A stretch of DNA of 64,000 nucleotides from assembly GCA_029834535.1 (NCBI GenBank), contig JAQMWT010000314.1, forward strand, positions 62,001 through 126,000, in the 5' to 3' direction. How positions within the stretch are numbered: position 1 is the first letter of the stretch; each line of letters starts with the position of its first letter. Below the pieces are notes generated by a model that was not told the origin of the DNA, did no database searches, and saw nothing but the letters and a program-made list of their open reading frames with translations. Positions 1-58,707 of the stretch are shown here, one piece after another. The DNA is from Chrysophaeum taylorii (lineage: Eukaryota > Sar > Pelagophyceae > Pelagomonadales > Pelagomonadaceae). Made by a program: the position numbers and the translations under genes.

Positions 1-3000
1 CACATTATCTCGACCAACGATACTTGGACTAGCATCTCAGCATCTCACTGCTCTGAAGAAGAATTTCTCAGCATCTCGCTGCTCTGAAGGCGAATTTCGC
101 GTCAAGCAACAACGTTGATATCCATGAAAACCGCGACATGAACTTCACGCGACTTTATAAGCGCATTACCGATGTCTACATGGGCCATCGGAGTATACAA
201 GTTGCTCGGCATTGTACCAATCACCGGAGTTCAAGTTGCTCGGCATTGTACCTGATCCGACGCACCCTCGAGTGGGTCCTCGCATTTGACTACGTGCATC
301 GTGCTTCAAGACTTACTGGCTTTGTTTTATCGCCTCGCATTTCGTACCGATGAATGTGGTTGTACCCTTGAGAAGTTCAACAACAACAATCAATTTAGAC
401 GGCATGCACAACCACTTCTGCCGCGCTATCCGCCGCGTCGTCAGCCGCAACCCCGACTTCAGACTCTTCCAACTGACCTACCCTATACGCTCCCCTTTCC
501 CATCAACCTGGCCCTACTCGATTCCGACGCAATACCCAATGTCATTTTGGCGGCTGCAAGGATCACTTTAAGAGGGACTGCCGCTAGTTTCAAACTCCCT
601 AGCTATTCCACGACAACGCGCTACCCACCATCGCCGTTCTTCTCAACAGCGCAACACTTCCAATGACTCCAACAACACCCAACAACACCAACCCACCAAA
701 ACCAGCACCATCAACACTACCTTTTCTGCTCCTATGCCTACTCCAACCTTGCCTGATTCTAGTTCCACTCCGCCGCTTTTCTTAATACTACCACCTATTA
801 CACCCCCTTCACCGCCTTAAACGGCCGCACCCAACGTCTCACATCCACCTCGCGCTACTCTATCTTATCATCTTTGCACCTTTCTGCCAATCAAGATAAT
901 TCCAAGTCAGCGTGTGTACCGCCGATTTTCTGCCGCACGCACATCAACAACCCCATCCCATGGAAGCCCCTCGTTTTTGTGAAGGAAAAGTGCTTTTGTG
1001 GAAGCCCCTCGTTTTTGTTTTTAGCTCCCATTGCACAGGCGCCCTTCGTCCTGTATTTTCCGCTATTCGTTGCTCAACCCCTCGTTCTGTATTTTCCCCT
1101 CGTCGTTGCTCCTCTCCTCGTTCTGTCTTTTCACCTCGTCGTTGCTCCCCTCCTCGTTCTGTATTTCGCCTATTCGTTGCTCCACTCCCCGTTTTGCATT
1201 TTCTGCTATTCGTTGATCCACTCCCCGTTCTACATTTTCTGCTATTCGTTGATCCACTCCTCGTTGTGCTTGTCGGTTTTGGTAAAACCAGCGAATCACG
1301 TTCCATCGCGCATTTCACCTGCCACAACTAAGCTGTGCCTGTCAATTTTTCGCGTGCGCAGCTTTCGTGCTTCCTATGTGGTTGGATCGCTCATCTTCGG
1401 GATCCTGGACAGACGCTTCTTTGCTGTGTGATTTGTGGTTCTCCTTCGCGCACTATCGCCTTTTCGCCGCTTTTCTGACCTTTACAATCCGGTTTTGCTC
1501 TCGCAGTGAATTCCGTGCTCAGCACCCGCGACGCTATCTGCAATGCTCTTACGTGTCACTACGACGCTATCTACAACGTTTATACGTGCCACAACTGTTT
1601 TGCCACTATCGCCAACTTCTACCACAGTCTATTCGAGTATGACGAGCGAAGCTCGCCGCTTGCTCCTCCAACGTTGGCCCATATGGCAACTTCGTTCTTG
1701 CGAATGCGAAAACGGGCCACTTCCTTATCTGCCACAGCAGGCTGGCATACAGCAGCCTGGTCTACCCGTGTTCGTTCCTTACACCGCTGGCGCGTCCGAA
1801 GTCTTCCATTTTCGCGTACAGGACGCGGTCGTGCCCATGGCAACTTGCTCGCACCACAACAACCAAACACCCACGTTCGCATCAAACCTGTTTCCGCCTG
1901 TTTTTGCTTCTGTCGACTCCGACCATCGTCATAACCTGGTCACCATGCACCATTCAACATATCTGCCCAAAGGCCACGTTCTCATCAGACGTCTGATACA
2001 CCGCCATCATATATACCAGCCCGTGTTCCCGCTATCTTTACCCCGCTGCGATTCTCAGTGGCACCAATCGTCTAACGCACGTCATCCCAGGCACTTTTGT
2101 CGCTATTGTTCTTCAGACCTCGATTTTGCTGACAGTTTCGCTTATCAGATTTCCTGCAATGTCAACCACCGAAGGAACTTCAACGTTGTTCTGACTTTCT
2201 CGAATCACACTTCCCAGCTCTCGTCTACTGTTGCCCCATTGTCACCTGTTCCTGCTCTTGCCCGATTGTCACCTGTTCTTCCGCTGTTGCCCCCTTGTCC
2301 CCTGTGTTTGATGAGAATGCGCCGGTTTCACTGGGACTGATCACCCCATCACGTGAACCGACCATTCTACGAGCTCATGAACTCCGACGAACCAAAGAGA
2401 GAAAACAACAAAACGTGCACAGCAAAGTCGAGCCAACCAGAGCCGACAAAACAACAAGCATGCAAAACAAAAAGCATGCAAAACAAAGTCGAGCCAAAAC
2501 GGAGCCGACCGCGCAAAGTCGACAAAAAGCGCACATTATTCAGAAGCAAATGGAGAACCAACTAAAACCCACAATACTGGCGTTTTACCACGCACTGTCG
2601 ATTCTGTGTCATCTTGTCATTCCCTTCGATTCTGTGTCATCTTGTCCTTCCCTGTACGTTAATTATTCTAGCTTTCGTTTGTTAGTTCATTATGTCTTCC
2701 TTCCCCTCTGTCTCGCCCAGCCCATCCAAATCCTGCACGTCGGTTACAAGCCCTTGCCGCAGAATATCATTCCCTCGGTCAGCTCGGTTGCTCGGATGTT
2801 GTTCGCGTTCCTTCTACTTTTTCTGGCACCATCTGCCCTTTGAAGTGGGTCCACCGCACAAAGTATGAATCTGGCCGCTTCAAATTGTACACTGCTCATC
2901 TCGTTGTCCGCGGTTACACCCAGGTTCACGGCATTGCTTACCACGACACGTACCGTCCTGTAGATGTCATCTCTCCTTTCATACAAGCCCCTGTCTGGCG

Positions 3001-4440
3001 TTGCTGTTCACGACTGGGATTTTCATAAGTTGGATGTCAGCTCCGCTTTTATCCAAGCTCCCATTGACGAAGGCATCTATGTCTGGCCACCCGACGGTTA
3101 TGCTCCTCGCCAACCCACCGATGGTTTCAAAATGATTTACACGCTCCGTCGCTCTTGGTATGGTTGCAAACAAGCTTGTCGTAATTGGTGGCTTTATTTG
3201 GCACGCTTTCGCGTCAATGACTGTGGCTTCGTCCGCGGATCTGGTGACACTTGCCGTTACAAGCTCGTGCTTAATTCTACCGTTGTCCTACGTCTCGTTC
3301 TTGTCGTTGATGATCTTCTTGCGGCGCACCCTCGTCCTTGCCTTGGTCATTACCCAGCCTTCTTCCTCCGTTTCCGAACCTTCACTGATGTTAACGAGCT
3401 TGATCTGACCACTTACGTTGGTCTCCGCATTACGCGTGCTCGCGCACAACCAGACTTGACTCCCGCTCCCAAAGTTCTCCCTCTTTCTGCGGCTGCTTCT
3501 CCTGCACCTGGCTCCCCTGCTCACGTCTTCATGGCACGCATCCCTTTTCGTCGTATTGTTGGCTGTGTTTTATTTATCTCCATCATGACTCGCCCTGATA
3601 TCACTTGGTCCGTCAATCAGTGTGCGCGTTTTTCACACAATCCTGATAAACCCCACTGGCACGCTTTATCCCACACTCTGCGTTATCTCAACGGTTCTCA
3701 GGCTCTTACACTTGTTCTTGGTCGCGACTCTACCCTTCGTCTCTGTGGTTATTCCGACTCCAGCTGGACCGACGACCCTGATGACCGCCACTCCACTACT
3801 GACTTTTGTTTTCTCCTTGCTGGCTCTATCATATCCTACTGCTCACGCTCGCAGTACCTCCTCGCCCGCTCCTCTTTTGAAGCTGAATTGCTCGTTCTTT
3901 ACGCCGCTACTGCTGAGCTCTCTTGGCTTCTCAAACTTTTTGATGCCTTTGATCTCCCTCGTCACACGGTCCCAATGTATGTCGATAACAGCACCACCGT
4001 CACCCAAGTCCGTCTCCAATGTCTCACGCGGCGCACCCGCCATATTGATATTCGTTTTTACAGCACCGCCGAATATCATCGCAACCACATCATTGATCTC
4101 CAACACATTCCCCACCTTGACAACCTTAGCGATATCTTCACCCGCAGTACGGAAGCTCCTTCCTTCCTCCGGCTTCGTGCTCGTTACCTCACCTCGTGAC
4201 TTCGCCCTGATCTCTCCTGTCTCTTTCTGCCACACTGCCTCTCCTGACGTCTTCCTTCAAGCTTCTCCTCTGTGAGCGTCTCATTTACCCCTTTTTCCTT
4301 CTTCCTTTTCTTTCTTTTCCAGCACCTCTGTGAGGACCTCACTTACTTACCCCTTTGTCCTTTTCTTTCTTTTCCAGCACTTGTGTGAGGAAGCTATGAC
4401 ACTTACCCCTGCACCACGTATCATCCAGTATCCCAACGTC
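1..4440 (+). mobile_element. Ty1/copia LTR retrotransposon, broken, left end outside window
   Basis: The best-preserved part is a pol segment from about 2840 to 4199 with reverse transcriptase (a VVDD catalytic box, upstream LDVSSAF and YGCKQA motifs) followed by a copia-type RNase H (YSDSSW, SFEAELL, RRTRHIDIRF and DIFTRS). The order and motifs are those of the Ty1/copia family. A gag-like zinc knuckle of CX4CX2HX4C spacing lies at 540-581. Integrase is not recognisable. A duplicated segment of roughly 57 bp with a CTTTTCTTTCTTTTCCAGCAC core occupies 4290-4400 and may belong to the 3' untranslated part or LTR. I could not pair two LTRs because the left end is outside the window. The element is clearly broken, with several interruptions, although the RT-RNase H part remains open over about 1.2 kb. 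Family assignment is firm; limits and age are not. Confidence 0.85.
1043..1272 (+). repeat. 36-bp minisatellite, about 6 units, inside the copia remnant
   Basis: The phrase TTCGTTGMTCMACYCCTCGT recurs every 36 bp (for example at 1209 and 1245) with a T-rich spacer, about six times. The unit is a multiple of three. It lies between the gag-like and pol-like parts of the retroelement. Confidence 0.8.
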
Positions 4441-4640
4441 ATTCCCTTATCGCTAGTGAGGTCCCCATTATAGTTCTCTCCAAAAGTAGGATCCGAGGAT
4501 GGATGACGTCATTCACAGTATCCCCTAACACTCCCCCCAAACCTCCACCTAAATCTAACAATACATGCCGCGTTTCGCTTAATTGACGTTCAGCCTACAA
4601 TGCTGTAAAATCCCAAATGTAGGTTTCTCGGACAATTAAT

Positions 4641-7600
4641 AGGGTCGGATAAGAAAGCTCAAAACTAGGCCCTAGCCTACATTTCGAACACCAAACGAGA
4701 AACCCTCATTCAAAAGTGGATTGTCTCAGGCTATGTTTCAAACATAGCCTGGAAAATCACAAAATCGGCGTTCCGCCCATGGAATCGGCCGAAACGAGCA
4801 AAGAGTCGGCCCCGGGTCCTTCTGTAACCCCTGTGGACCCTTCGGTCCCGGCTGAGTTGACGAAAGTGTCGAAAAAACCCGCTGCCAAACGTCAACGGCG
4901 AAAAAACCTCTTGAGGGGAGAGTGCGTGTGCTGCGTAGCGAGGCTCGACGCCGACGAGACGGCCAGGGGCCAGCCGCTCGACCTGGAGCGACTCCTGAAT
5001 ATCGAGGGCGAGCTGCCCGACAAGTTCTACGTGTGCTCGAAAATGTGCCGGGACGACTTCACCCCGAGCAAGCTACACACGACGAAGGGCGCGAAGGCCG
5101 TTCTCGCCCGGATCTCCGCGTCGCTAACTAGGACTCTCAAGACAACCATCCGCAGCGGGGACGAGGTCCTCATCGAGCACGACTTCTCGGCGGGGCACAA
5201 CATCCAGGGCGGCAACGGCGTTGTCCTGGGCCTAATCTACAACAACACTGTGTGTCGGGTCGAGTCATACGACGTGAAAACGATTCAGCAGGGAGAGATC
5301 CGCGTCCCGTTCTCCCACGTCAAGGCCAAGCCCGACAAGGAGGACGACACCCCCCCGATTCGGCGACTACCACCCGGACGGCCAGCGCGTCCGACGCTTG
5401 GATCGAGTGGGTCATCGGTTATCTCCACACTGTCGTCGTCGTCGGACTCGAATGTGCGGATCTCGGAGCTCGAGAAGGAGGTGTCGAAACTCCGGAGCAC
5501 GGTCGACAAGCTCACGGCGGCCAAGACGGCTCAGCACTCTCGCTCTGTCACCGCCGAACGCGAGACGAAAGAAGCCCACGCCGACGCCTTCGCCGCGGAA
5601 ATGGCGGCCGCCAAGGCAGACGCGGCGCGTCTCGAGGCCAAGTGGAAGTACGAGGACGAGGTCCGGGATGCCGCACGTCGGGAGGCACGGCTCCAGGTCC
5701 GCATCGAACGCCACCAGGCCTCCAATGAGAAGCAGCGCGACCGCGATGCCGCGAGGCTGCAGCGAGCCATCGACGAGCTCAACGCGACCAAGGCCCAGTC
5801 GAACGAGGCGGCGAGACAGGCTGCGGCGGCGGCCGAGTTTCGGGAGAGGAACCGACTGAAGAAATCGGACCCTCGGGCCATGCGACAACTCAAGAACAAT
5901 TACGCCGCCCTCAATCAGGAAGCGAAGCAAATGGAGATAAAGCTCGCGGCTGCCGAGGACCGCGTCCAGGCCCGGGAGGAGGAGATCGAGCGGCTGCGGG
6001 AGCGGGTCGCGGTCCTCGAGAAGCAGAACGCCGAAGTGTGGGTACCGCGGAAGCCGTCCGGCAAGGGATCCGGCAAGGGCACTCCGTGGGACTCGAAGCT
6101 CAGGGTGCTGTGTATGAAACTGCTCGCCTCGCGGGTTGCGCCTGCGGAAATCCCCGAGGTCCTGGTCTCGGTCGTCGAGGCGGTCGTTGGCCCGGATCGA
6201 GTGCGCGACATGGAGCTCCCCGTCCGCACGCTTCATTCGCGACCTGCGCTCCGAGATGGGTGTCCTTCACGAGGCCGCCGTCGCCCTCGCCGTGGGATAC
6301 GGTGACGTCGTCGACGCGGCGACGGACGCGTCGCCGCTCGATGGCAAGGAGATCGCGACTACCCAACTTCGCGTCACACGCGGCGGCGTGACGGAGAACT
6401 GGACGCTGGGCGCGAGCGAGATCTCCGACCAGAGCGCGCCTGGCGAGGCCAAGGCGATCAACGATCGGTTTGGTGACCTGAATCGAGCGCTCCAGCTCGT
6501 TAATCAAGTTTACCAGGAGCTCTACGGAGCCGACGCTGCTGCGGAGGCGCTCCCGGCCGCCGGCAGCGCCGGCGTACAGAATCTCGCCGGCCGGGCCATC
6601 GTTACCGACAACGCCTCCGCCGCCATCGCATCGGTCCGCGAGCTCCAGGAGCATGTCCTCGCGGCGGTGCAGAAGGAGATCGGGGAAGAGCTGTGGAATT
6701 TGATGACGCAAGACGAGCGCGACGCGAAGACTCGTGTCTTTCACGGGAACTGCCAGCGACATCTCGGTACGTCGCGCCGTCCCACCAGCAATTTGTTGAG
6801 CAGGCAACACATGGCTCGACGGCGGCGCCGCCGAGGAGGCCAAGATGCTCGACACGCTGCTGAAGGATAGCATCGAGAGCTCGGAGGCGAAGCACCTGCG
6901 CCTCACCGGCGAGTTGAACAAGGTCATTCATGCCTTGTCCAAGTGTATCGGCGAGGGCGTGGATCGCTATGGGAAGGGCTTCGGGACCCCTCTCCGGGCA
7001 TTCCTCGAGGAGAAGCACCCTTCGGAGCTCTACCTCACGCTCGGCCGCACGGACAAGGGGACGCGGCAGGACGCGTGCACCAACGCGGCCTGGGTCATCT
7101 TCCACAACCTCCCGTTTCTCGTCGAGTTCCTCGAGAACGCGAGCTACGCGCCGCAGAACATCCTCAGGAACAACCTCTTCTCGACCTTGTCCTCGCAGGA
7201 GGTCGCCGGAGCCATTCGAGCCCGAGCGATCATCGACGACAAGCTCACGGTGCCTTTCCGATTTTTCGCCGCATCGGACGCCCTCGAGGGTTGGTCGGTT
7301 CTCGACATGGCGGGCGTTCTCGAGCGAGTGCATGCCTTCTTCTAAGTCTGCCAGGATAATCCACAACTCGTTGCGACCGCCGGTTACGAGGCCTTCGACA
7401 CTGAGATCGCCACCTACGCCCAGTTCCTCGAGACGCGGGCCGGGTCGGCGAAGCTGTCCGTCGACGGCCAGTCCACGATCCGCGACGTCGCGGCCGTTCG
7501 CTCCGCCTGACACCAATGATCCAGAGGCCAAGACCATGCTCGACGCGCTCCGGGCCTGGGGCCGCGGCATGCGCCGCACGTTCGAGGGGGGGCAGTCTAT

Positions 7601-9291
7601 GCGCTACGTCGGCGACGGCGACCTCGCGGCGGTCAACCAGACGTCGGAGCTCCGGAGGGCCTTCGACGGCGCGCTGCGGAACTCGAACGAGGTCGAAGGC
7701 GAGTTTGGCGTATTGAAGTATTACAACGCCTCCTACGTCAACATGAGCGTCGTGAACTGCGTCGGGGTCGTCGCGTGCCAACGGGACCACATGTTCGACC
7801 GGGCCGCCACGAGTTTTACGACCAAGCGCCGGCGACGCGTCGCCGACGAGGTCGCTGGTCGAACGACGACGAAGGCTCGAATGCGCGATCGAGTTGGTGG
7901 AGGACGTCTCGCCACGCTCGGCGACGACTTTCGAGGAGTGTTGATGGAGGCGGCTCGTCGTGGTCGGCAGAACCACAAGGAGCAGGCTGCCGCGCGCGCG
8001 GAGGCGGCGAAGGAGCACCATCGCCGTCGCGCCGCCGCGTTCGTCGAGAAGGCCCTCGAGCGCCAGGTGAACGACTACGCCAAGGCCCAGGAGGCCATGA
8101 AAGTCAAGCCTGTCGTCGACGAGCAGGCCCTCGTCGGGAGGACCCTGCTCTCGACGGTCAAGAAGCGACTTGATGCGGCACTTAAGCAGATCTCGAGCGA
8201 CGCTGCGCGGTCGAAGGTCCTCAAGGAGAACATCGACAGGTACGTCGTCGGCATGGGCATGGGCGACCTCAAACCCAAGTCCTACACCTCGGGCAAGGAC
8301 CCGACGATCGGCTCGGCCGGTTCCAAGGCCAACATCGAATTCCTCACCGCGCACCTCGAGTACGTCTACGAGCAGATCAAGACCAACTCCCGCGAGTTGG
8401 TCGCCGAGGCGGTAGTCCCGGGCGAGCGCCGACGGCAGCTGCCAGTGCTCGGGACCGCGACGGCCCAGCGTCTCGAACTCGACGCGAGGCGGCACTTGAG
8501 CGTTGACGAGCTCAAGGCGAAGGTTGAGGAGTGCCGCGCCTTTCGCCATCCGAGGAAGCGGACGCGGACAACGAGTGGCCGCTCGAAGCTACCGATGATT
8601 GACGTGGCGTTGGTCGGGTCACGCGTCGAGGTTCTCTGGGAGTTGTCGGGGCACCCGGGCTGCTACTGGATGCCCGGCACCATCGAGGCGGTATCCGACG
8701 AGAACTCCAAGGACGGTCGCAAGAAACTCGGGCTGGGTTGGATCTTCGTTTCCTATGACGACGGTTTCAGCGGGTGGCTCCTCGCGAACCGCCCCACCTT
8801 CTTCAACGGCTCCAAGCCGGCTTCCTGGCGCTTCGTGTCCGAGGACAACGAATACGACGACGACGAGGAGGAGGAGGACGCGATGGACGTCGACGACGAC
8901 GACTACGCATAGCTGCGTTCGCGGGCCCCGACGCCGGTCTCCCGAGGACGCCCGGAAAGACGAGGACACTAGAACTGGCCCCAGCGAACAAAAGGCGCCG
9001 TCTAAACGCCCACACGACCCTCATTGGGCCTACGGACATTCCCGACGCGCCGGTTGTTGTATTTGGAGCCGATGGCGTCGTGCAGAGTAGAGCCACCTAG
9101 GCCCCCGCCTCCACCGAGGCGCCAAAATACCTCACTCCCAAGTAGATTCGCCAAATCGGCAGCTACGGACTTCGTTCCAAGATAAAATCGGCACCATTTT
9201 GGGTCAACTTGGCGACGGACAAAAAAGCCCGCCAATCCTTGGGGATTTTCGGCCCCGGCGCGGGGGACCCACGAGTTCCTTATCCGACCCT
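4641..9291 (+). mobile_element. TIR DNA transposon (4.65 kb) with transposase gene
   Basis: The left end starts AGGGTCGGATAAGAAA at 4641 and the right end at 9276-9291 is its inverse complement at 15 of 16 positions. The same termini bound two 257-bp elements at 16504 and 52862, which identifies them as transposon ends. The interior holds one large decayed coding region (4779-8912) on the plus strand, with zinc-cluster, coiled-coil, RNase H-like and Tudor-like parts. A perfect 10-bp-stem palindrome (GGCTATGTT core) lies at 4728-4750 just inside the left end. I see no convincing target-site duplication around this copy: the left flank is ACAATTAAT and the right flank ACCAAAAGG. Superfamily is unassigned. 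The element sits directly against the retrotransposon on the left and a duplicated promoter segment on the right. Confidence 0.8.
4779..8912 (+). pseudogene. Transposase of the TIR element, spliced and frame-broken
   Basis: The ATG at 4779 opens a frame running to about 6220. It holds a Cys cluster (CVCC ... YVCSKMC, about residues 48-90), a small SH3-like stretch and a long coiled coil (about 225-430). A one-base shift near 6217 moves to a second frame with a candidate first catalytic Asp (TDASPLDGKE), a second (IVTDNASAA) and a CxxH motif (HGNCQRHL). A 37-nt GT-AG intron at 6767-6803 joins HGNCQRHLG to NTWLDGG. The next frame has a stop at 7343-7345, continues open to 7507, then shifts again into a frame ending at 8912. 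That last part carries a candidate Glu (NEVEGEFGVLK), basic helices and a Tudor-like segment (VEVLWELSGHPGCYW, about 8620-8840), then an acidic tail. One stop and two shifts suggest this copy is dead. The RNase H fold assignment is inference. Confidence 0.6.
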
Positions 9292-9826
9292 ACCAAAAGG
9301 TGAGGGTAGGAATGCCGGTCCTGGTGTGTGCGAGTGCCCGGGGCTATATATACCCCTGTGCTTCCCCATCATAGTGAAACGTGAACATCTGGGGCGAGTC
9401 AAGCATGTATGCGAGACGGTGGGGACCCAGCAGACGACGACGCCATCTGCTTCAGATGAACATCTGCGTCGGAGATGAACACCCGGTCCTGGTAAGTGAA
9501 AGCGCGCCCAGATGAGGGGGGTCTAGTGTGTGTGCTAGACGATGGGGCTCCAGCAGTTGGCGACGGCAACCGCTTCGTAGAGACTCACACACTCCTTCAC
9601 ACTCCTTTTGGCGCAGCGGTGGAGCGGATTCGAACGCGCGAACCACCTCGTGCGCTTTAAGGGCCCATAACCAAAAGGTGAGGGTAGGAATGCCGGTCCT
9701 GGTGTGTGCGAGTGCCCGCGGCTATATATACTCCTGTGGAGCTATATATACCCCTGTGCTCTCATCCACATTTCAGTTCTCACACTTCTCCCCTTGGCAC
9801 GGGCAGCAGAGCGAAGGGTAATTGTG
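9292..9826 (+). promoter_or_regulatory. Duplicated TATA-containing promoter region of the TLC-domain gene
   Basis: A 69-bp segment at 9292-9360 recurs at 9670-9738 with two differences; its similarity begins at the first base after the transposon end. Each copy contains TATATATA (9345-9352 and 9723-9730), and a third TATA motif lies at 9743-9750, 77 bp before the ATG at 9827. A weaker duplication pairs about 9402-9444 with 9528-9573 (CGAGACGGTGGGG versus TAGACGATGGGG). No gene is visible in between. The downstream TATA is the likely core promoter of the next gene. Confidence 0.55.
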
Positions 9827-10636
9827 ATGACGCCGGCGTGGGTCATCCGTGGCGCCGGTTTGAGCTACGCCGCGCGCGGCGTGGCGACGGTGGTCGGGCT
9901 GGAGATGGTGTTTCGAGCGGTGGCGAGCAAGGAGGAGACCCGACGCATCGCGGCGCTGAAGTCAATCGCTATTATTCACTCCTTAATCGTCGCGCCGCTC
10001 TCTTTGTATGCGTTGATAACGCATCCTGATCTCCGGGCGCAGACGTTGCAGGTGTTGCGGTTCGAAGATGTGTCCGAGCTGTTCGACGGCGGCGGGGGGC
10101 GCGAATGGGCGGACCTTCTGACGTCATTCACGGTCGGATTCTTCGTTTTCGAGCTCTTTCACGCGCGGGACTGGGCGCCGTCGACGCGCGTCGACAAACT
10201 GACGATGATCGTACATCACGTAGTCTCGGCTGTTCTGTGGCCGCTCTCGATTCGGCTCGAGATCGCGTATTTCTTTTTGGTTCATTTCGAGCTTACCGAA
10301 GTATCGAGTCCGTTTCTCCAGCTTCGGTGGTTCGCCAAGACGTACGGGAATGCGACCCTCGAGGCCGTGGTTTCCCTGGTCTTCGCCTTGGTCTTCTTTG
10401 CGTTTCGCACGACCGTTGTGGTCCCCATGTTCCGCGCGATCTACCTAACCCGGCCCTGGGACGGGGCCTTGTATCCCCGCCTCTCCCTCGCCGTCCGCAT
10501 TATCTCGCTCGTTTCGCTCTACATCCCCTTTCTCCTCAACTCCCTCTGGTCCTGGCAGATCGTCAAGATGGGCCTCCGCATCTACAACGGCAAAAAACAC
10601 AAGAAAACACAACAACGGGCGGCAAAGATAGACTAA
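9827..10636 (+). CDS. TLC-domain (TRAM/LAG1/CLN8-like) multi-pass membrane protein
   Basis: The product is 269 aa from the ATG at 9827; the frame is open further upstream but only from GTG. Several hydrophobic segments are present (about residues 42-62, 95-112, 122-160, 185-205, 232-255). The central HHVVSAVLWP and FELTEVSSPFLQLRW stretches are typical of TLC domains, which occur in ER ceramide synthases, TRAM and TMEM56-like proteins. The C-terminus is lysine-rich (KKHKKTQQRAAK), compatible with cytosolic ER retention. The double-His pattern of ceramide synthases is only partly seen, so a TMEM56/CLN8-like lipid-handling role is as likely as acyltransfer. It is preceded by the TATA motifs at 9723 and 9743 and followed 95 bp later by the IDO-like gene on the same strand. 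Confidence 0.75.
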   Translation: MTPAWVIRGAGLSYAARGVATVVGLEMVFRAVASKEETRRIAALKSIAIIHSLIVAPLSLYALITHPDLRAQTLQVLRFEDVSELFDGGGGREWADLLTSFTVGFFVFELFHARDWAPSTRVDKLTMIVHHVVSAVLWPLSIRLEIAYFFLVHFELTEVSSPFLQLRWFAKTYGNATLEAVVSLVFALVFFAFRTTVVVPMFRAIYLTRPWDGALYPRLSLAVRIISLVSLYIPFLLNSLWSWQIVKMGLRIYNGKKHKKTQQRAAKID

Positions 10637-10670
10637 TAATGCTAAAAAAACCCTAGCACGTGATGATGTT

Positions 10671-10672
10671 CG

Positions 10673-10703
<31 letters not shown>
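10671..10703 (+). repeat. (ATG)n microsatellite at the 5' end of the IDO-like gene
   Basis: About eleven ATG/TGA triplets in a row. Read in the frame of the downstream gene they give a run of methionines, making many alternative in-frame start codons. Confidence 0.9.
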
Positions 10704-10731
10704 ACAAGTCGTCGTCGTCGTCCGTGGTGTC

Positions 10732-11934
10732 ATGGTGCCGTATGCGTCGGAGGCGCGACAGTTTCTGTCGCAGTACGGGGTGAGCCGGGAGCGCGGGTTT
10801 TTGCTCCCTGACTGTGACCCCCTCGAGGCGTTTCCCGACGAGAGGCTCGCTGGGTGGGATCGCGTCGCAAGCCTCCTTCCCGGGCTGTGCGCCGCCGCCG
10901 GCGTGGAACGGGCCGTCGCGGAGCTCCCGCCGATCGATCCAGAAATCATCGACGCCGCGAGCACCCCGGCGCTCGAGCGGTTAAACTTGGTGGTGTCGTT
11001 CCTGGCTCACGCGCTCGTTTGGTTCGACGGCGGGTCGGCGATTCCCCCGATCCTCGCCGACCCCTGGATCCGCGTCGCGTCGCGCCTCGGGCGCCCGCCC
11101 ATCTTGACGTACTACTCGTACAACGCCTGCAACTGGCGGCGGCTCGACCGGAGAAAGGGTATCGAGTTAGGAAACGTGTGCAGGCTCTTGAATTTTGCGG
11201 GCGGACTCGACGAAGAGTGGTTTTCGATGGTCCACGTTGCGATCGAGGCCCAAGCTGGTGTGGCCATCGATGCCTGCGTGCGCGCGAGGATAGCAGCGAG
11301 GGCCGACGACGACCGCGCGGTGGCCGCAGCCCTCGGAGACCTCGGCGCGACTTTGCGAGCGATGGTCGCGACGCTAAATAGAATGCGAGAGGGTTGCGAC
11401 CCCTATATCTACAACCGCCGCGTCAGGATACCAATGGCCGGCTTCACGGAGATGCCGTACGGCGATGATGAACGACGAACATATCTCGGAGAGACGGGGG
11501 CGCAATCCTCGGTTATTCCCGCGATAGACGCCGCGATAGGCTTGCGGTGCGACGACGTCGGCGGCGTCGACGGGGCCGATGCCCTCGTCCCCTACCTCGT
11601 CACGATGCGGGACTACATGCCCCCTCGCCACGCGGCCTTGATCGCCAACTTGGAGCAGGACGACCTCGACCTCCGCGCGTTTTGCCGCCGCCGCGGCGGC
11701 GGCGGCGGCTGGAGAAAAAGAAAAACCGCCTCGGCCTTCGACGACGCGCTCAGCGCTCTCGTCGACTTCCGCGCGCTGCACCTCGGCCTCGCCCACGCGT
11801 ACGTCCGCCAGTGGGACGACCGCACCGACGACCAGGTCACGGGCACGGGCGGTACCCTCTTCATGCCCTACCTCCGCGCGCACCGCGACGCGACCAAACA
11901 ACACGCGATCAACGACGCTGATTTATTATTCTAG
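10732..11934 (+). CDS. IDO: Indoleamine 2,3-dioxygenase-like haem dioxygenase
   Basis: The product is about 400 aa from the ATG at 10732. The family is recognisable along its length: LNLVVSFLAHALVW, an ILADPW and RPPILTYYSYNACNW segment, FSMVHVAIEAQAG, GETGAQSSVIPAIDA, YMPPRHAALIANLE, then FRALHLGLAHAYVRQ with the expected proximal haem-ligand His, and GTGGTLFMPYLRAHRDAT near the C-terminus. Such enzymes open the indole ring of tryptophan to N-formylkynurenine in the cytosol. A Gly/Arg run (about residue 320) is an insertion relative to most family members. The frame extends upstream through a methionine-coding (ATG)n repeat to a GTG at 10660; I chose the first ATG after the repeat, but an earlier start is possible. 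It is convergent with the VPS37-like gene, 14 bp apart. Confidence 0.9.
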   Translation: MVPYASEARQFLSQYGVSRERGFLLPDCDPLEAFPDERLAGWDRVASLLPGLCAAAGVERAVAELPPIDPEIIDAASTPALERLNLVVSFLAHALVWFDGGSAIPPILADPWIRVASRLGRPPILTYYSYNACNWRRLDRRKGIELGNVCRLLNFAGGLDEEWFSMVHVAIEAQAGVAIDACVRARIAARADDDRAVAAALGDLGATLRAMVATLNRMREGCDPYIYNRRVRIPMAGFTEMPYGDDERRTYLGETGAQSSVIPAIDAAIGLRCDDVGGVDGADALVPYLVTMRDYMPPRHAALIANLEQDDLDLRAFCRRRGGGGGWRKRKTASAFDDALSALVDFRALHLGLAHAYVRQWDDRTDDQVTGTGGTLFMPYLRAHRDATKQHAINDADLLF

Positions 11935-16221: not shown

Positions 16222-16503
16222 GATCACACGAGTGTTCGCCTGTGCGCACACCACGATTGGGCGAGAGGGACGCAGACCACAACAACTGCAACAGACTCGC
16301 TGATAGAGTTCGACGAGGCTTGGTGGGTCGGCTGACACGGCATCGCACCTTCTTGCCAACTTCTTTTTGCTCGTGACGACGGTTGGTTTGTTGTTTTTAA
16401 CAAGAGTAAGGGTTAAACGTTCGAGCTTTGCGCGATCTGTCGCGGGCTTGCGGAGCGCGGCGCGCCAATTAGTGGCCGGCGCAGCGCGCAAAACGGATAC
16501 GGT

Positions 16504-16760
16504 AGGGTCGGATAAGAAAACGAGACTAGCCCGCGCCGCAACGACGGGTCCTACAACGCGTGGGCTTTTTCCTTTTTTTGCGTGAGGGGACGAAAGGATG
16601 CCGACTTCACTATGGGGACTAGTTCCATCGCGACGATCTCGCGGCGTGGCGGCACATACTGCTTGAGTACAAATGAACATAGCTCAGCGATCCGTTGAGT
16701 ATGTCTTAGTACAAACTGAAACATAGTTAACGGCTCGTACGAACTTTCTTATCCGACCCT
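16504..16760 (+). mobile_element. MITE copy 1 (257 bp), ends match the 4.65-kb transposon
   Basis: It starts AGGGTCGGATAAGAAA and ends with the inverse complement TTTCTTATCCGACCCT. It differs from the copy at 52862-53118 at only about two positions over 257 bp. GGATACGG occurs directly on both sides (16495-16502 and 16761-16768), with one extra base on the left, giving an 8-bp, or 8 of 9, target duplication. It lies upstream of H2B. Confidence 0.92.
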
Positions 16761-17116
16761 GGATACGGATAGCCCACCATCAACAGTAAGCCCCCAGGGG
16801 TTACCATTCTTAATAAGGCTGGGGTAAGCGCCACATCGGCGGCGGCAAAATGATGGCCTTACGACTGACGTATCAAGACACGCTGCAAACCCACCTGTAT
16901 CAACGTGGCAGGGCTTAAGTCCCTCCACGGTGATTCTCAGCGGCAGTCTGCTACAACGTATGTTGGTCTGCGTCAACGTTCTTCTCGAGCTTTTGGTGCA
17001 AAGACCACACAGGCTAAACCCGACTCCAACTCTCCCACTCCCTTGAGGAAATCAAAAAACGAAAAAAATAAACGCACTCCAATTGAGATAGACCCCGCAC
17101 TTCTTTTTGATATTAT
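16761..17116. other. Intergenic stretch between MITE and Helitron-derived copy
   Basis: There are two short opposing open frames (about 75-79 codons) with no recognisable family. I see no RNA gene or strong motif. Confidence 0.5.
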
Positions 17117-20068: not shown

Positions 20069-21346
20069 ATGCTGTCGTTCGTCGCTGCAGCGACTGCCCT
20101 GCTGCACGGGTTTGAACCGTCATCGTACCGTTGGACCTCACGAGTCGTGCGCTGTGGTGACATCGTGGCGGACGCTACTCGAGGAAATAATTCGGAGGCG
20201 GCGAGAAGTCCTGCGCACAACATAGCAGCTGTTTTTTTGCAGCGGCGCCTCGGGCTGAGAGAGGCCGAGCTGAAGAAGATCACATCGGCATCATCTTTCA
20301 TTTTGAACTGCAGCTACGAGGCAGACATCGAGCCGAAGCTCACAGCGCTACAACAACGTCTCGATCTGAATGATGCCCAGCTGAAGAAGTTGGTGCTGGC
20401 CAGGCCACAGGTTTTGAGTTATGATATCAACATTGTGACATCGCTGACGATGCTGCAGCAAAAACTCGGGCTGAGCCAGGCTGAGATCAAAAAGCTGGTG
20501 ATGCGGGTGCCTCGTTTGCTCGGCTCGAACATGGATAGCAATCTCGAGGCACTACTGGGGGGGTTGCAGAGAAGGCTAGAGCTCAACGAGACCGAGCTCA
20601 AGAAGGTGGTGCTGGGATTCCCAGCAGTACTTGCCTGCAGCTACGATGCTAACATCGAGCCGTCGCTTGCGGCTTTGCAGCTGCTGCTCGGGCTGAGCGA
20701 GGCCGAGCTGAAGAATTTAGTGGTGAAGCGCGCGATGGTCATCGGTTGCAGCATTGAGGCCAACATCGTGCCGACGCTTGCGCTGTTACAAAAACGGCTA
20801 GGGTTGAGCGATGTCGAGCTGAAGAAGATGGTGCTTCGCTTCCCGACGGTGCTCGTCTTTAGCTACGAGGCCAACATCGAACCGTCGCTATCGGCGTTAC
20901 AAAATCGGCTCGGGCTGAGCGATTCCGAGCTCAAAAAGGTGGTGGTGCGGCTCCCGGCGGTCTTCGGCTACAGCTACGAGGCCAATATCGAGCCTTCGCT
21001 GGCGGCGTTACAAAATCGGCTCGGGCTGAGCGAGGCAGAGCTCAAGAAGGTTGTTCTGCTGCTCCCCGCCGTGCTCGGGTGCAGCTACAAGGCCAACCTC
21101 GAACCAAAGCTCGCGTTTTTCCAAAGGGATCTCGAGCTCTCGGATGAGTCGCTGCGGGAGTTGGTGGTGCGTTTTCCAACGTTATTAGGCTACAGCCTCG
21201 AAAAACGTTACCGACCGCGACTTGAACGGTGCCGACAAGCGGGCAAACCGCCACGACTTGTATTGGACTGTGCTATTTTACCGGACGATAAATTTGACAA
21301 AGTCCTCTCTCGCGATTGCAGAGTGCGCAACTACGGTGGCCTCTAG
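20069..21346 (+). CDS. mTERF-like helical repeat protein
   Basis: The product is 425 aa from an ATG. About residues 55-385 are nine consecutive 36-residue repeats of the form LGLSEAELKKVVLRLPAVLG followed by YSYEANIEPSLAALQNR. This is the mTERF pattern: Leu-rich helices with a Pro-containing P-x-hydrophobic-L turn. The family binds nucleic acid in mitochondria or plastids and regulates organelle transcription, splicing or translation. The N-terminal 55 residues lack the repeat and could be a transit peptide, though acidic residues make this uncertain. The repeats are unusually regular and similar to each other, pointing to recent internal expansion. No intron is seen. Confidence 0.82.
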   Translation: MLSFVAAATALLHGFEPSSYRWTSRVVRCGDIVADATRGNNSEAARSPAHNIAAVFLQRRLGLREAELKKITSASSFILNCSYEADIEPKLTALQQRLDLNDAQLKKLVLARPQVLSYDINIVTSLTMLQQKLGLSQAEIKKLVMRVPRLLGSNMDSNLEALLGGLQRRLELNETELKKVVLGFPAVLACSYDANIEPSLAALQLLLGLSEAELKNLVVKRAMVIGCSIEANIVPTLALLQKRLGLSDVELKKMVLRFPTVLVFSYEANIEPSLSALQNRLGLSDSELKKVVVRLPAVFGYSYEANIEPSLAALQNRLGLSEAELKKVVLLLPAVLGCSYKANLEPKLAFFQRDLELSDESLRELVVRFPTLLGYSLEKRYRPRLERCRQAGKPPRLVLDCAILPDDKFDKVLSRDCRVRNYGGL

Positions 21347-24920: not shown

Positions 24921-25841
24921 ATGGTTGTCCTTCGCGCGGCCGTTCTCAAGCCCTTGGACCACGCCAAGTTCCTCGCCTCGCCGACCAAGGCGGAACTCGT
25001 GGAGTTTGTTGTAGCCCTCAACAAAAGCTGCTTTGGCCGGCGGACCGCGCACGGCGAGATCTCCGCGCGCATCGCGTCGATTCTCCGTGGCGTCGCAGAC
25101 AAAGTTGACGACTTCCCCGCGCGCGGGGATAATCGACGCTTCGGAGACGCCGCGTTTCGCGACTGGCACGCCTGGCTCGTCGCGTCTTCGGTTACGCTTG
25201 TTGCGCCGCTCGCGGGGGACGCGGCGGCAGCGGAAATCGCGCTTTACTTGAGCGCCTCGTTCGGCGACCCCCAGAGACTAGACTACGGTACCGGTCACGA
25301 GACGGCCTTCGTCGTCTTTTTGCTCTGCTTGTGGCGCTGCGGGGTCTTGCCGGCATCGGAGGTGACCGACGGCGCGGTGGTCTTGGTGGCCTTCGAGGCC
25401 TACTCGGACGCGTGTCGTCTCGTCCAGACGCGGTACGCCCTAGAGCCCGCCGGCAGTCGCGGCGTCTGGGCTCTCGACGACTATCAGTGCCTGCTCTTTC
25501 TCTTTGGCTCCTCCCAGCACTGTGGGGCCGGGAATGCCCCCGCCGCTTACGTCGACCTAGCTGGTTTGAGACTCCTTCCCGACGACGACACCCTCTTCGC
25601 CCAGGGACTCCGATTCGCCGCGGCCTGCAAGAAGGGAGCCCCTTTTTTCGAGTCATCGCCGATCCTTTTCGCACTCGCGAAAAAACCCTGGCACCTCGTC
25701 AACAATCACATCTTCGACTACTACGACAAGGAGGTTCTGGGAAATTTTGTCGTCGCCCGCCACCTCTTGTTCGGCGACCTCTTCCCCGCGACCTGGCTGA
25801 CGGGTGCTGGGAACAGCAGCAGCAGCAGCAGACGGGCATGA
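24921..25841 (+). CDS. PTPA: PP2A phosphatase activator PTPA
   Basis: The product is 306 aa, about the usual family length. Conserved stretches in order: AELVEFVVALNKSCFGRRTA, FGDAAFRDWHAWL, LDYGTGHETAF, GSRGVWALDDYQCLLFLFGS and the C-terminal YDKEVLGNFVVARHLLFG. PTPA binds the PP2A catalytic and scaffold subunits with ATP and helps load active-site metals; it was also described as a prolyl isomerase. It acts in cytosol and nucleus. A short Ser run from an AGC repeat precedes the stop. It is convergent with the PPR-like gene, 59 bp apart. Confidence 0.92.
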   Translation: MVVLRAAVLKPLDHAKFLASPTKAELVEFVVALNKSCFGRRTAHGEISARIASILRGVADKVDDFPARGDNRRFGDAAFRDWHAWLVASSVTLVAPLAGDAAAAEIALYLSASFGDPQRLDYGTGHETAFVVFLLCLWRCGVLPASEVTDGAVVLVAFEAYSDACRLVQTRYALEPAGSRGVWALDDYQCLLFLFGSSQHCGAGNAPAAYVDLAGLRLLPDDDTLFAQGLRFAAACKKGAPFFESSPILFALAKKPWHLVNNHIFDYYDKEVLGNFVVARHLLFGDLFPATWLTGAGNSSSSSRRA

Positions 25842-52724: not shown

Positions 52725-54054
52725 ACAAGTGCAGGCCAGTAAGTTCACCTACTCCCAATCTCTAACCCCAGCAAGTTCACTGTTTCTGTTAAGTTCACCT
52801 AGTCCCAATCTCTAACCCCAGCAAATTCACCGTAAACCCAATCTCTAACCCCAGTATTATTAGGGTCGGATAAGAAAACGAGACTAACCCGCGCCGCAAC
52901 GACGGGTCCTACAACGCGTGGGCTTTTCCCTTTTTTTGCGTGAGGGGACGAAAGGATGCCGACTTCACTATGGGGACTAGTTCCATCGCGACGATCTCGC
53001 GGCGTGGCGGCACATACTGCTTGAGTACAAATGAACATAGCTCAGCGATCCGTTGAGTATGTCTTAGTACAAACTGAAACATAGTTAACGGCTCGTACGA
53101 ACTTTCTTATCCGACCCTGCCAGTAAGTTCGGCGTAAACTCACACCCACTCTCCTTTGAGCTCGTCGCTCTCACCCCCGCCAAGCTGCTTTGATCCGCAC
53201 ACGCCGCTACCCTTTTAGTTTACTCTAAGAGCCCCCGTGGTCTCAGTAAGTTCACCTGGTCACTTAGTTCACCTAGTCCCAATCTCAAACCCCAGTAAGT
53301 TCACCTGGTTCCAGTAAGTCCACCTGGTCCCAGTAAGTTCACCTATAGTGCGCGTGTAGACGCCGGGAGGGGGCTTATCGGTATTGCGCAGCACGTGTGG
53401 GGTAGGGTGGAGTCGTCGACCCAGCAGAGGATATCCTCGGGGTTGCCGATCGACAGAGAGCCACGTAGAGCTGGACGTGGCAGAAGACGGGCTTCGCCAA
53501 GAGGACGCCGACCTCGCGGGGCGTCTGGCCCTGGCTCTTGGTGATCGTTTGGCGTCGGCGGGCCTTACGGGATACAGGTTGGAGGAGCCTCGGTGACAAC
53601 GACACGATCGATCATGTATCCGGTACCGTTGCAGTGGCCGCGCGACGGGTCGAGGTTGCGAAGACTTTAAGCTCGCGATCAAAGTCCGCATGCCGTTGGT
53701 TGTCAGGGAGTTCAAAACTCGACTGTGAAGAGCGAGGCGTCGGCTTCCGACCCAACCTAGTCGGCCGAAAAGAACTCCGACGCCTCGTCTCCGGGAAAAA
53801 AGGCCGCGGTCATGCGCGCGTTGTCAGCATCGACAACATCGTTTCGACGGGGCGTGAGAATGGCGCGCTGGCTAAAAGAGCCGCCGCGGGTCGTGGAAAT
53901 AGTCTGCGAGGTCGCCTTAGACGGCTTGGAGGATCACTGTCTGGCTCTCGCGCCTACCGGATCCTTACTCTCGCGCCTACCTGATCCTTACCCTAAATCG
54001 AGGGACAGACAAACAAACAAACAAACAAACAAACATCTGTCGATTAGTAGTTAA
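52725..54054 (-). repeat. Helitron-derived unit E (inverted), carrying a nested MITE
   Basis: 1330 bp including the 257-bp MITE at 52862-53118, so 1073 bp on its own. It is closest in layout to unit F at 17117-18145. Confidence 0.8.
52862..53118 (+). mobile_element. MITE copy 2 (257 bp), nested in unit E
   Basis: The same ends and length as copy 1, with about two base differences. It has split a CCAGTAAGTTC repeat phrase: CCAGTA lies on both sides, with five additional bases (TTATT) on the left. It inserted after the array unit was formed. Confidence 0.92.
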
Positions 54055-58465: not shown

Positions 58466-58707
58466 CTGATGACTGGCTCGACGATAACGCAATGATTTTG
58501 ATAGGGGTCTTCCTTCTTCTCCGAACCTTCTTCTTCTTCTTCTCCTTTGCGAATAATAATATATGAGGGTTTTTTTTTGGTGTCAAAGGTCCTCACCTTG
58601 ACTCTTCTCTTCTTGGAGACAGACGACTCCGTGGCTCTGCCCCACCACATCGCATTATTAGCTCCTTCCCCCGAGCGAGCGAGGCCCTCTAGGGTTCGTC
58701 GTAGTTA

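Follow-up and report, generated by a model that had tools for sequence, protein, structure and literature searches.

The window analysed here, a 64,000-nucleotide stretch of the Chrysophaeum taylorii genome, contains at 4640..9292 an element with terminal inverted repeats (TIRs). It belongs to a cut-and-paste transposon family of which at least 30 copies, nearly identical to one another, are present. In our view this family is autonomous and most likely uses hAT-like chemistry, with a lineage that is not demonstrably hAT, a reading to which we give a probability of roughly 70%. The original prediction, of a TIR transposon that encodes its transposase and has its ends in common with two miniature inverted-repeat transposable elements (MITEs), holds in the main. 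The genome of 70.8 Mb (697 contigs) yielded 30 aligned copies, 28 of them with both ends.

Copies, ends and target sites

The exact 16-mer end occurs 594 times (288 + 306) in the C. taylorii genome, against none for the reversed control. Within the window there are seven matches with up to three mismatches, where 0.44 are expected, and the one at 58513 (three mismatches) is probably due to chance. A DNA search of the genome with the whole element gave at least 35 matches, from which 30 loci were retrieved, including the window copy. These align across 4.63–4.68 kb with 96–100% identity to the window copy, and in 28 of the 30 full-length copies both ends lie within two mismatches of the TIR, so the ends and the coding region belong together. 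The mean pairwise identity among the 30 is 99.39% (435 pairs; minimum 97.4%), and this near-identity indicates a recent spread of the family. A diverged relative, with stretches 73–82% identical to the element, lies beside the full copy L014 on the opposite strand (G000:C466:83443-85996).

The window copy and its flanking target site duplication (TSD) comprise the following features:

4640..9292, + strand: whole element, broken copy (L009), counting the outer Y...R bases (first reported as 4641-9291)
4640..4656, + strand: left TIR, 17 bp, TAGGGTCGGATAAGAAA; the T at 4640 is alternatively the final base of a nested repeat
9276..9292, − strand: right TIR, 17 bp, TAGGGTCGGATAAGGAA when read inward, differing from the left TIR at one position
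4480..4486, + strand: left TSD, CCAAAAG, set apart from the element by the nested repeat
4487..4640, + strand: nested repeat of ~155 bp, inserted at the left TIR; its limits may be off by a few bases
9293..9299, + strand: right TSD, CCAAAAG

The 16-bp ends first reported are present at 4641-4656 (+ strand), at 9276-9291 (− strand, one mismatch) and at both MITEs, but the TIR proper takes in a further outer base on each side (Y...R) and so measures 17 bp (YAGGGTCGGATAAGAAA). After removal of seven duplicates we assembled 49 distinct end pairs, 25 full-length and 24 of MITE size, one of which is an artefact in that it pairs one left end in L035 a second time. The outer first base is T in 45 of the 49 and C in 4, followed by AGGG, and the outer last base is A in 38 and G in 11. 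A search for subterminal repeats gave nothing clear.

Full copies and target duplications, whose collection across the genome had been proposed as a check, were both obtained, and the TSDs are of 7 bp. A perfect 7-bp duplication is found in 29/49 flank pairs (19/25 full-length, 10/24 MITE), against a mean of 0.64 expected over 1000 re-pairings of the flanks, and a perfect 8-bp duplication at the same offset in 0/49. The duplicated sequences follow a symmetric motif, NYNNNRN, with a pyrimidine at position 2 in 28/29 (p = 1.2e-7) and a purine at position 6 in 29/29 (p = 1.2e-9).

A window copy lacking a TSD was considered and rejected: CCAAAAG flanks the nested repeat and the element together, and was hidden because this repeat has inserted at the left end. 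The same type of ~155-bp repeat intervenes in L014, where the TSD GCTTGGG is recovered beyond it. This repeat is also seen at L018, L034, L002/L003 and L061, and its 27-bp end has 72 genome matches at up to two mismatches. Among 20 exact copies retrieved, 8 directly abut a TIR of the transposon or of a MITE, and TAGGGT follows in 6 of the remaining 12; the repeat may prefer TTAGGGT-like targets, of which the TIR is one, or may use microhomology there.

A candidate two-exon transposase gene and its subfamilies

The only long gene between the ends in the 30 collected copies is the candidate transposase gene. It consists of two exons separated by a predicted 37-nt GT-AG intron directly after HGNCQRHLG, readable in 29/30 copies; L029, in which the intron pattern was not matched, was left out, and hence 29 copies were analysed. 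Two of them, L019 and L025, have an intact gene, encoding proteins of 1372 and 1373 aa, and the other 27 are broken. The coding region of the original prediction is present between the ends, but is to be read as a single gene with an intron, and in the window copy it is frameshifted, interrupted by an internal stop and missing 14 bp. Its features in the window are (residue numbers of L019):

4779..6766, + strand: exon 1, ATG at 4779, with the Cys cluster, a coiled coil and the first part of the candidate catalytic region; frameshifted
4923..5048, + strand: N-terminal Cys cluster, C49, C51, C52 ... C86, C90; candidate zinc site
6325..6327, + strand: first candidate catalytic Asp, D516
6607..6609, + strand: second candidate catalytic Asp, D610
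6751..6762, + strand: CxxH motif, C658 and H661, inside HGNCQRHL
6767..6803, + strand: intron, 37 nt, GT-AG, placed from reading frame and homology, not from a transcript
6804..8912, + strand: exon 2, with a helical insertion, the last acidic residue and the C-terminal region; internal stop near 7343, 14-bp deletion near 7498
7695..7697, + strand: candidate catalytic Glu, E967, invariant across three subfamilies

The N-terminal part of exon 1 also contains a stretch that by eye appears SH3-like. At the C-terminus, the Tudor-like module first proposed dwindled to a sub-threshold Agenet hint in one of two sequences (E = 0.096, 13.6 bits, cut-off 27).

Searches of the same genome with the transposase protein listed 134 and 135 stretches, which are exon pieces rather than copies, down to ~31% identity. 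Among them we distinguished two further subfamilies with homologous genes between similar ends. Subfamily B (L039, L040) has ~48–52% protein identity to the main family, is intronless and has the ends TAGGGTGGGTTAAG...CTTATCCGACCC, and subfamily C (L041) has ~40% protein identity, an intron at the same position and the ends TAGGGGCCATTAAGAAAC...GTTTCTTAATTGCCCC; both sets of ends likewise start with TAGGG. All three subfamilies retain D516, D610, C658-x2-H661 and E967, and the Cys cluster is likewise retained in the related ones. The Cys cluster, the D/D/E candidates and the HGNCQRHL motif noticed at first sight are confirmed. The ratio of nonsynonymous to synonymous substitution rates (dN/dS) is 0.30 against L039 (606 codons) and 0.39 against L041 (486 codons), indicating that the protein was under selection. 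The value against L038 (0.74) was dropped, as L038 is frameshifted against L019; its exon 1 is 98.9% identical.

The repeated gene could also be a passenger in TIR elements moved by a different transposase, given that the MITEs have just the TIR in common with the element and that the catalytic fold is unproven. We consider this highly improbable, since the gene is the sole long one inside the ends of the collected copies, the subfamilies hold homologous genes between similar ends, and the D/D/CxxH/E residues are kept.

We propose a family of DNA transposons that move autonomously by cut and paste, have 17-bp TIRs and a 7-bp NYNNNRN duplication, and encode a single large (~1370 aa) DDE-type transposase. 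The N-terminal Cys cluster and coiled coil would serve in DNA binding and oligomerisation, followed by a putative catalytic region of the form D-D-CxxH-(helical insertion)-E, a basic stretch and a putative SH3/Agenet-like tail. The protein would bind the TIRs, excise the element and join its ends to the target strands at points 7 bp from each other, and intact copies would move in trans both the defective full-length copies and MITEs with unrelated bodies.

Placement among transposon superfamilies

As first reported, the protein cannot be placed in a known superfamily by similarity. The window open reading frames, the spliced protein, exon pieces, four domain pieces and eight subfamily members gave no significant Pfam match, nor did a 490-aa piece in NCBIfam, and no significant match was obtained in the PDB sequence search, where the one at E = 0.9 is attributable to chance. 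A weak match to DUF7217 (E = 0.015–0.021, best 15.5 bits, cut-off 29) was dropped, recurring in 0/8 members. Viral contigs, prokaryote genomes and phage records showed no relative; the contig scans, made with short near-exact peptide patterns, reach close relatives only, and these negatives do not bear on other algae. No description of the family was noticed among the open-licence PMC papers listed. AlphaFold models of a subfamily B protein (594 aa; predicted local distance difference test, pLDDT, 37; predicted template modelling score, pTM, 0.22) and of the exon-1 core of the main family (193 aa; pLDDT 55, pTM 0.38) agree in showing three strands surrounding the first Asp and, after them, a long helix, which is how an RNase H fold would begin; their confidence is too low, and such a fold is thus unproven. 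Foldseek with the 193-aa model gave a best E of 0.25, and nothing at or below 0.001. Neither of the outcomes named beforehand as contrary to the original prediction, a strong superfamily match or ends unrelated to the coding region in other copies, was therefore encountered.

The TIR consensus of hAT elements is YAGGG/CAGNG, and Ac has an end of the YAGGG type, as the present family does. In Hermes, a hAT element, the TIRs measure ~17 bp and the target is 8 bp long, nTnnnnAn (PMC10368747), with a Y..R symmetry that is found again inside the present TSD. CxxH or DxxH after the second Asp is common to hAT, Kolobok, P and MuDR (PMC3706591), and the long insertion before the Glu is a further likeness to hAT. 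Taken together, the type of end, the symmetry of the target motif and the CxxH suggest hAT or the wider hAT/P/MuDR/Kolobok/Dada group more than a lineage with no connection to them.

We have not filed the family as hAT because it lacks the other hallmarks that we tested, namely an 8-bp TSD, the hAT dimerisation domain, a BED finger and similarity in sequence. The duplication is of 7 rather than 8 bp, the dimerisation domain PF05699 has no match in the transposase with E limits of 10 and 5, nor has the BED zinc finger at E up to 10, and no hAT transposase similarity appeared in the Pfam and PDB sequence searches. The same PF05699 profile finds six loci elsewhere in this genome, all above the cut-off, so ordinary hATs are recognisable in it. 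Ordinary elements of hAT type stand at two loci, L070 and L071 (G000:C367), where the dimerisation domain can be recognised (E-FSHAG motif). The protein also differs from hAT transposases in its length, about twice the 612 aa of Hermes (PMC10368747), in its Cys pattern and in a C-terminal extension past the Glu.

A true but very divergent hAT is nevertheless possible, if rather doubtful. 'hAT7' elements with a 7-bp TSD are published for rust fungi (PMC12730594), and a Repbase text example filters hAT with a 7-bp TSD (PMC4455052), so this length alone does not exclude hAT; the YAGGG start, the symmetric target motif and the CxxH following the second Asp fit as well. Against it stand the silence of the dimerisation and BED profiles where PF05699 succeeds at other loci, and the fact that the fungal hAT7 elements were classed by transposase similarity, of which none is seen here.

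Membership of the P superfamily, as in Galileo, is very unlikely. P/Galileo elements have TSDs of 7 or 8 bp, as the present family does, and that of Galileo is of 7 bp with the consensus GTANTAC (PMC4168063), compatible with Y2 and R6, so that NYNNNRN fits both the hAT and the P groups, and the two also share the order D-D-(x)2H-E and a large insertion ahead of the Glu. However, P/Galileo has D(2)H where CxxH is found here, no THAP or P-element Pfam match was detected, and the spacing differs (D327-D415-E642 in Galileo, D516-D610-E967 in L019), with 227 residues from the second Asp to the Glu in Galileo versus 357 here.

KDZ elements have very large transposases with a Cys-rich N-terminus, recalling the present protein, and a KDZ-like element had been entertained at first. 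This assignment (Zisupton, Dileera or Kyakuja), or one to Dada, is highly unlikely. The protein has no match to the KDZ domain PF18758; a KDZ search of the genome was silent, but equally so in its controls, and says little. The Zisupton TSD is 8 bp (PMC12730594), not 7 bp. The 6–7 bp TSD of Dada (PMC3706591) and its place in the (C/D)xxH group are closer to the present family, whereas the Dada U6 and U1 families are reported to lack TIRs and to insert into small RNA genes; here the TIRs are clean and the sites scattered, with no small-RNA-gene pattern noticed, though this was not tested systematically.

For the two other superfamilies in question, the Kolobok target duplication is TTAA, not a 7-bp NYNNNRN sequence, and that of MuDR is ~9 bp rather than 7 bp; no MULE/MuDR domain match was found in the Pfam searches.

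The family may also form a eukaryotic DDE lineage of superfamily rank, placed next to hAT, P, MuDR, Kolobok and Dada but within none of them. Such a lineage, marked by its D-D-CxxH-E transposase of ~1370 aa, hAT-like TAGGG ends, 7-bp NYNNNRN duplications and at least three subfamilies in a single alga, is a serious but tentative possibility that falls somewhat short of an even bet. Other microalgal gene sets may hold similar unnamed proteins. A transposon survey of Ectocarpus lists 51 unknown DNA families beside hAT, KDZ and others (PMC12477816), so brown-lineage algae have room for such groups. The host genome studied here gave at least 71 matches to light-harvesting proteins, one of which has fucoxanthin chlorophyll a/c proteins as its nearest PDB entries, marking the host as a fucoxanthin-type alga.

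Several observations weigh against an autonomous family with hAT-like chemistry. A DDE/RNase H domain is proven by neither sequence nor fold comparison, and the likeness between MITEs and element is too small to prove which transposase moved the MITEs. A perfect TSD is missing in 20/49 flank pairs, the artefactual L035 pairing included; the nested repeat accounts for two of these (L009, L014), yet L034 carries the same repeat with no TSD match beyond it. At L039 and L041, which are older copies from the subfamilies, no 7-bp TSD can be seen.

Transposon libraries cover algal genomes poorly. With its recent activity, intact copies, hundreds of TIR ends and defined TIR and target rule, this family offers a testable case of hAT-type ends and target symmetry paired with a transposase missed by standard profiles. 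If the lineage is separate, it adds a new branch of D-D-(C/D)xxH-E transposases, and if it is a far hAT, it shows how much the hAT profiles miss in protists. The family is also a possible future mutagenesis tool for algae.

MITEs, probable movement in trans and neighbouring features

Two MITEs in the window share the TIR of the element:

16503..16761, + strand: MITE 1, 257 bp plus the outer Y/R bases (16504-16760 without them)
16496-16502 and 16762-16768: TSD of MITE 1, GATACGG
52861..53119, + strand: MITE 2, 257 bp plus the outer Y/R bases (52862-53118 without them); no clean 7-bp TSD

They are 99.2% identical to each other, and among the first 100 listed of the 594 ends there are 40 facing pairs up to 1.5 kb apart, 30 of them exactly 257 bp. 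The two 257-bp elements with the same ends had been described as deletion-type; the ends are indeed the same, but derivation by deletion was rejected because, beyond the 16–17 bp of the TIR, there is no similarity to the element above chance. In L035, near 6159-6433, a 257-bp MITE has inserted into a TIR belonging to a full-length copy and is flanked by a 7-bp TSD of its own, TTCTTAT.

The broken copies themselves bear on movement in trans. The window copy shares its 14-bp deletion with L010 and L014, and L024, L029 and L033 share an 8-bp deletion, and the TSDs all differ among the copies sharing either lesion. Common lesions at different sites indicate that copies with a dead gene were moved, most simply in trans by intact copies. 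The same transposase probably moves the MITEs too, as the TIR is common to both.

Elsewhere in the window, an open reading frame at 2964-4199 resembles by eye a copia-type reverse transcriptase/RNase H, and host genes (TLC-domain protein, indoleamine 2,3-dioxygenase, mTERF, PTPA) are found at 9704-11931, 20069-21343 and 24921-25838.

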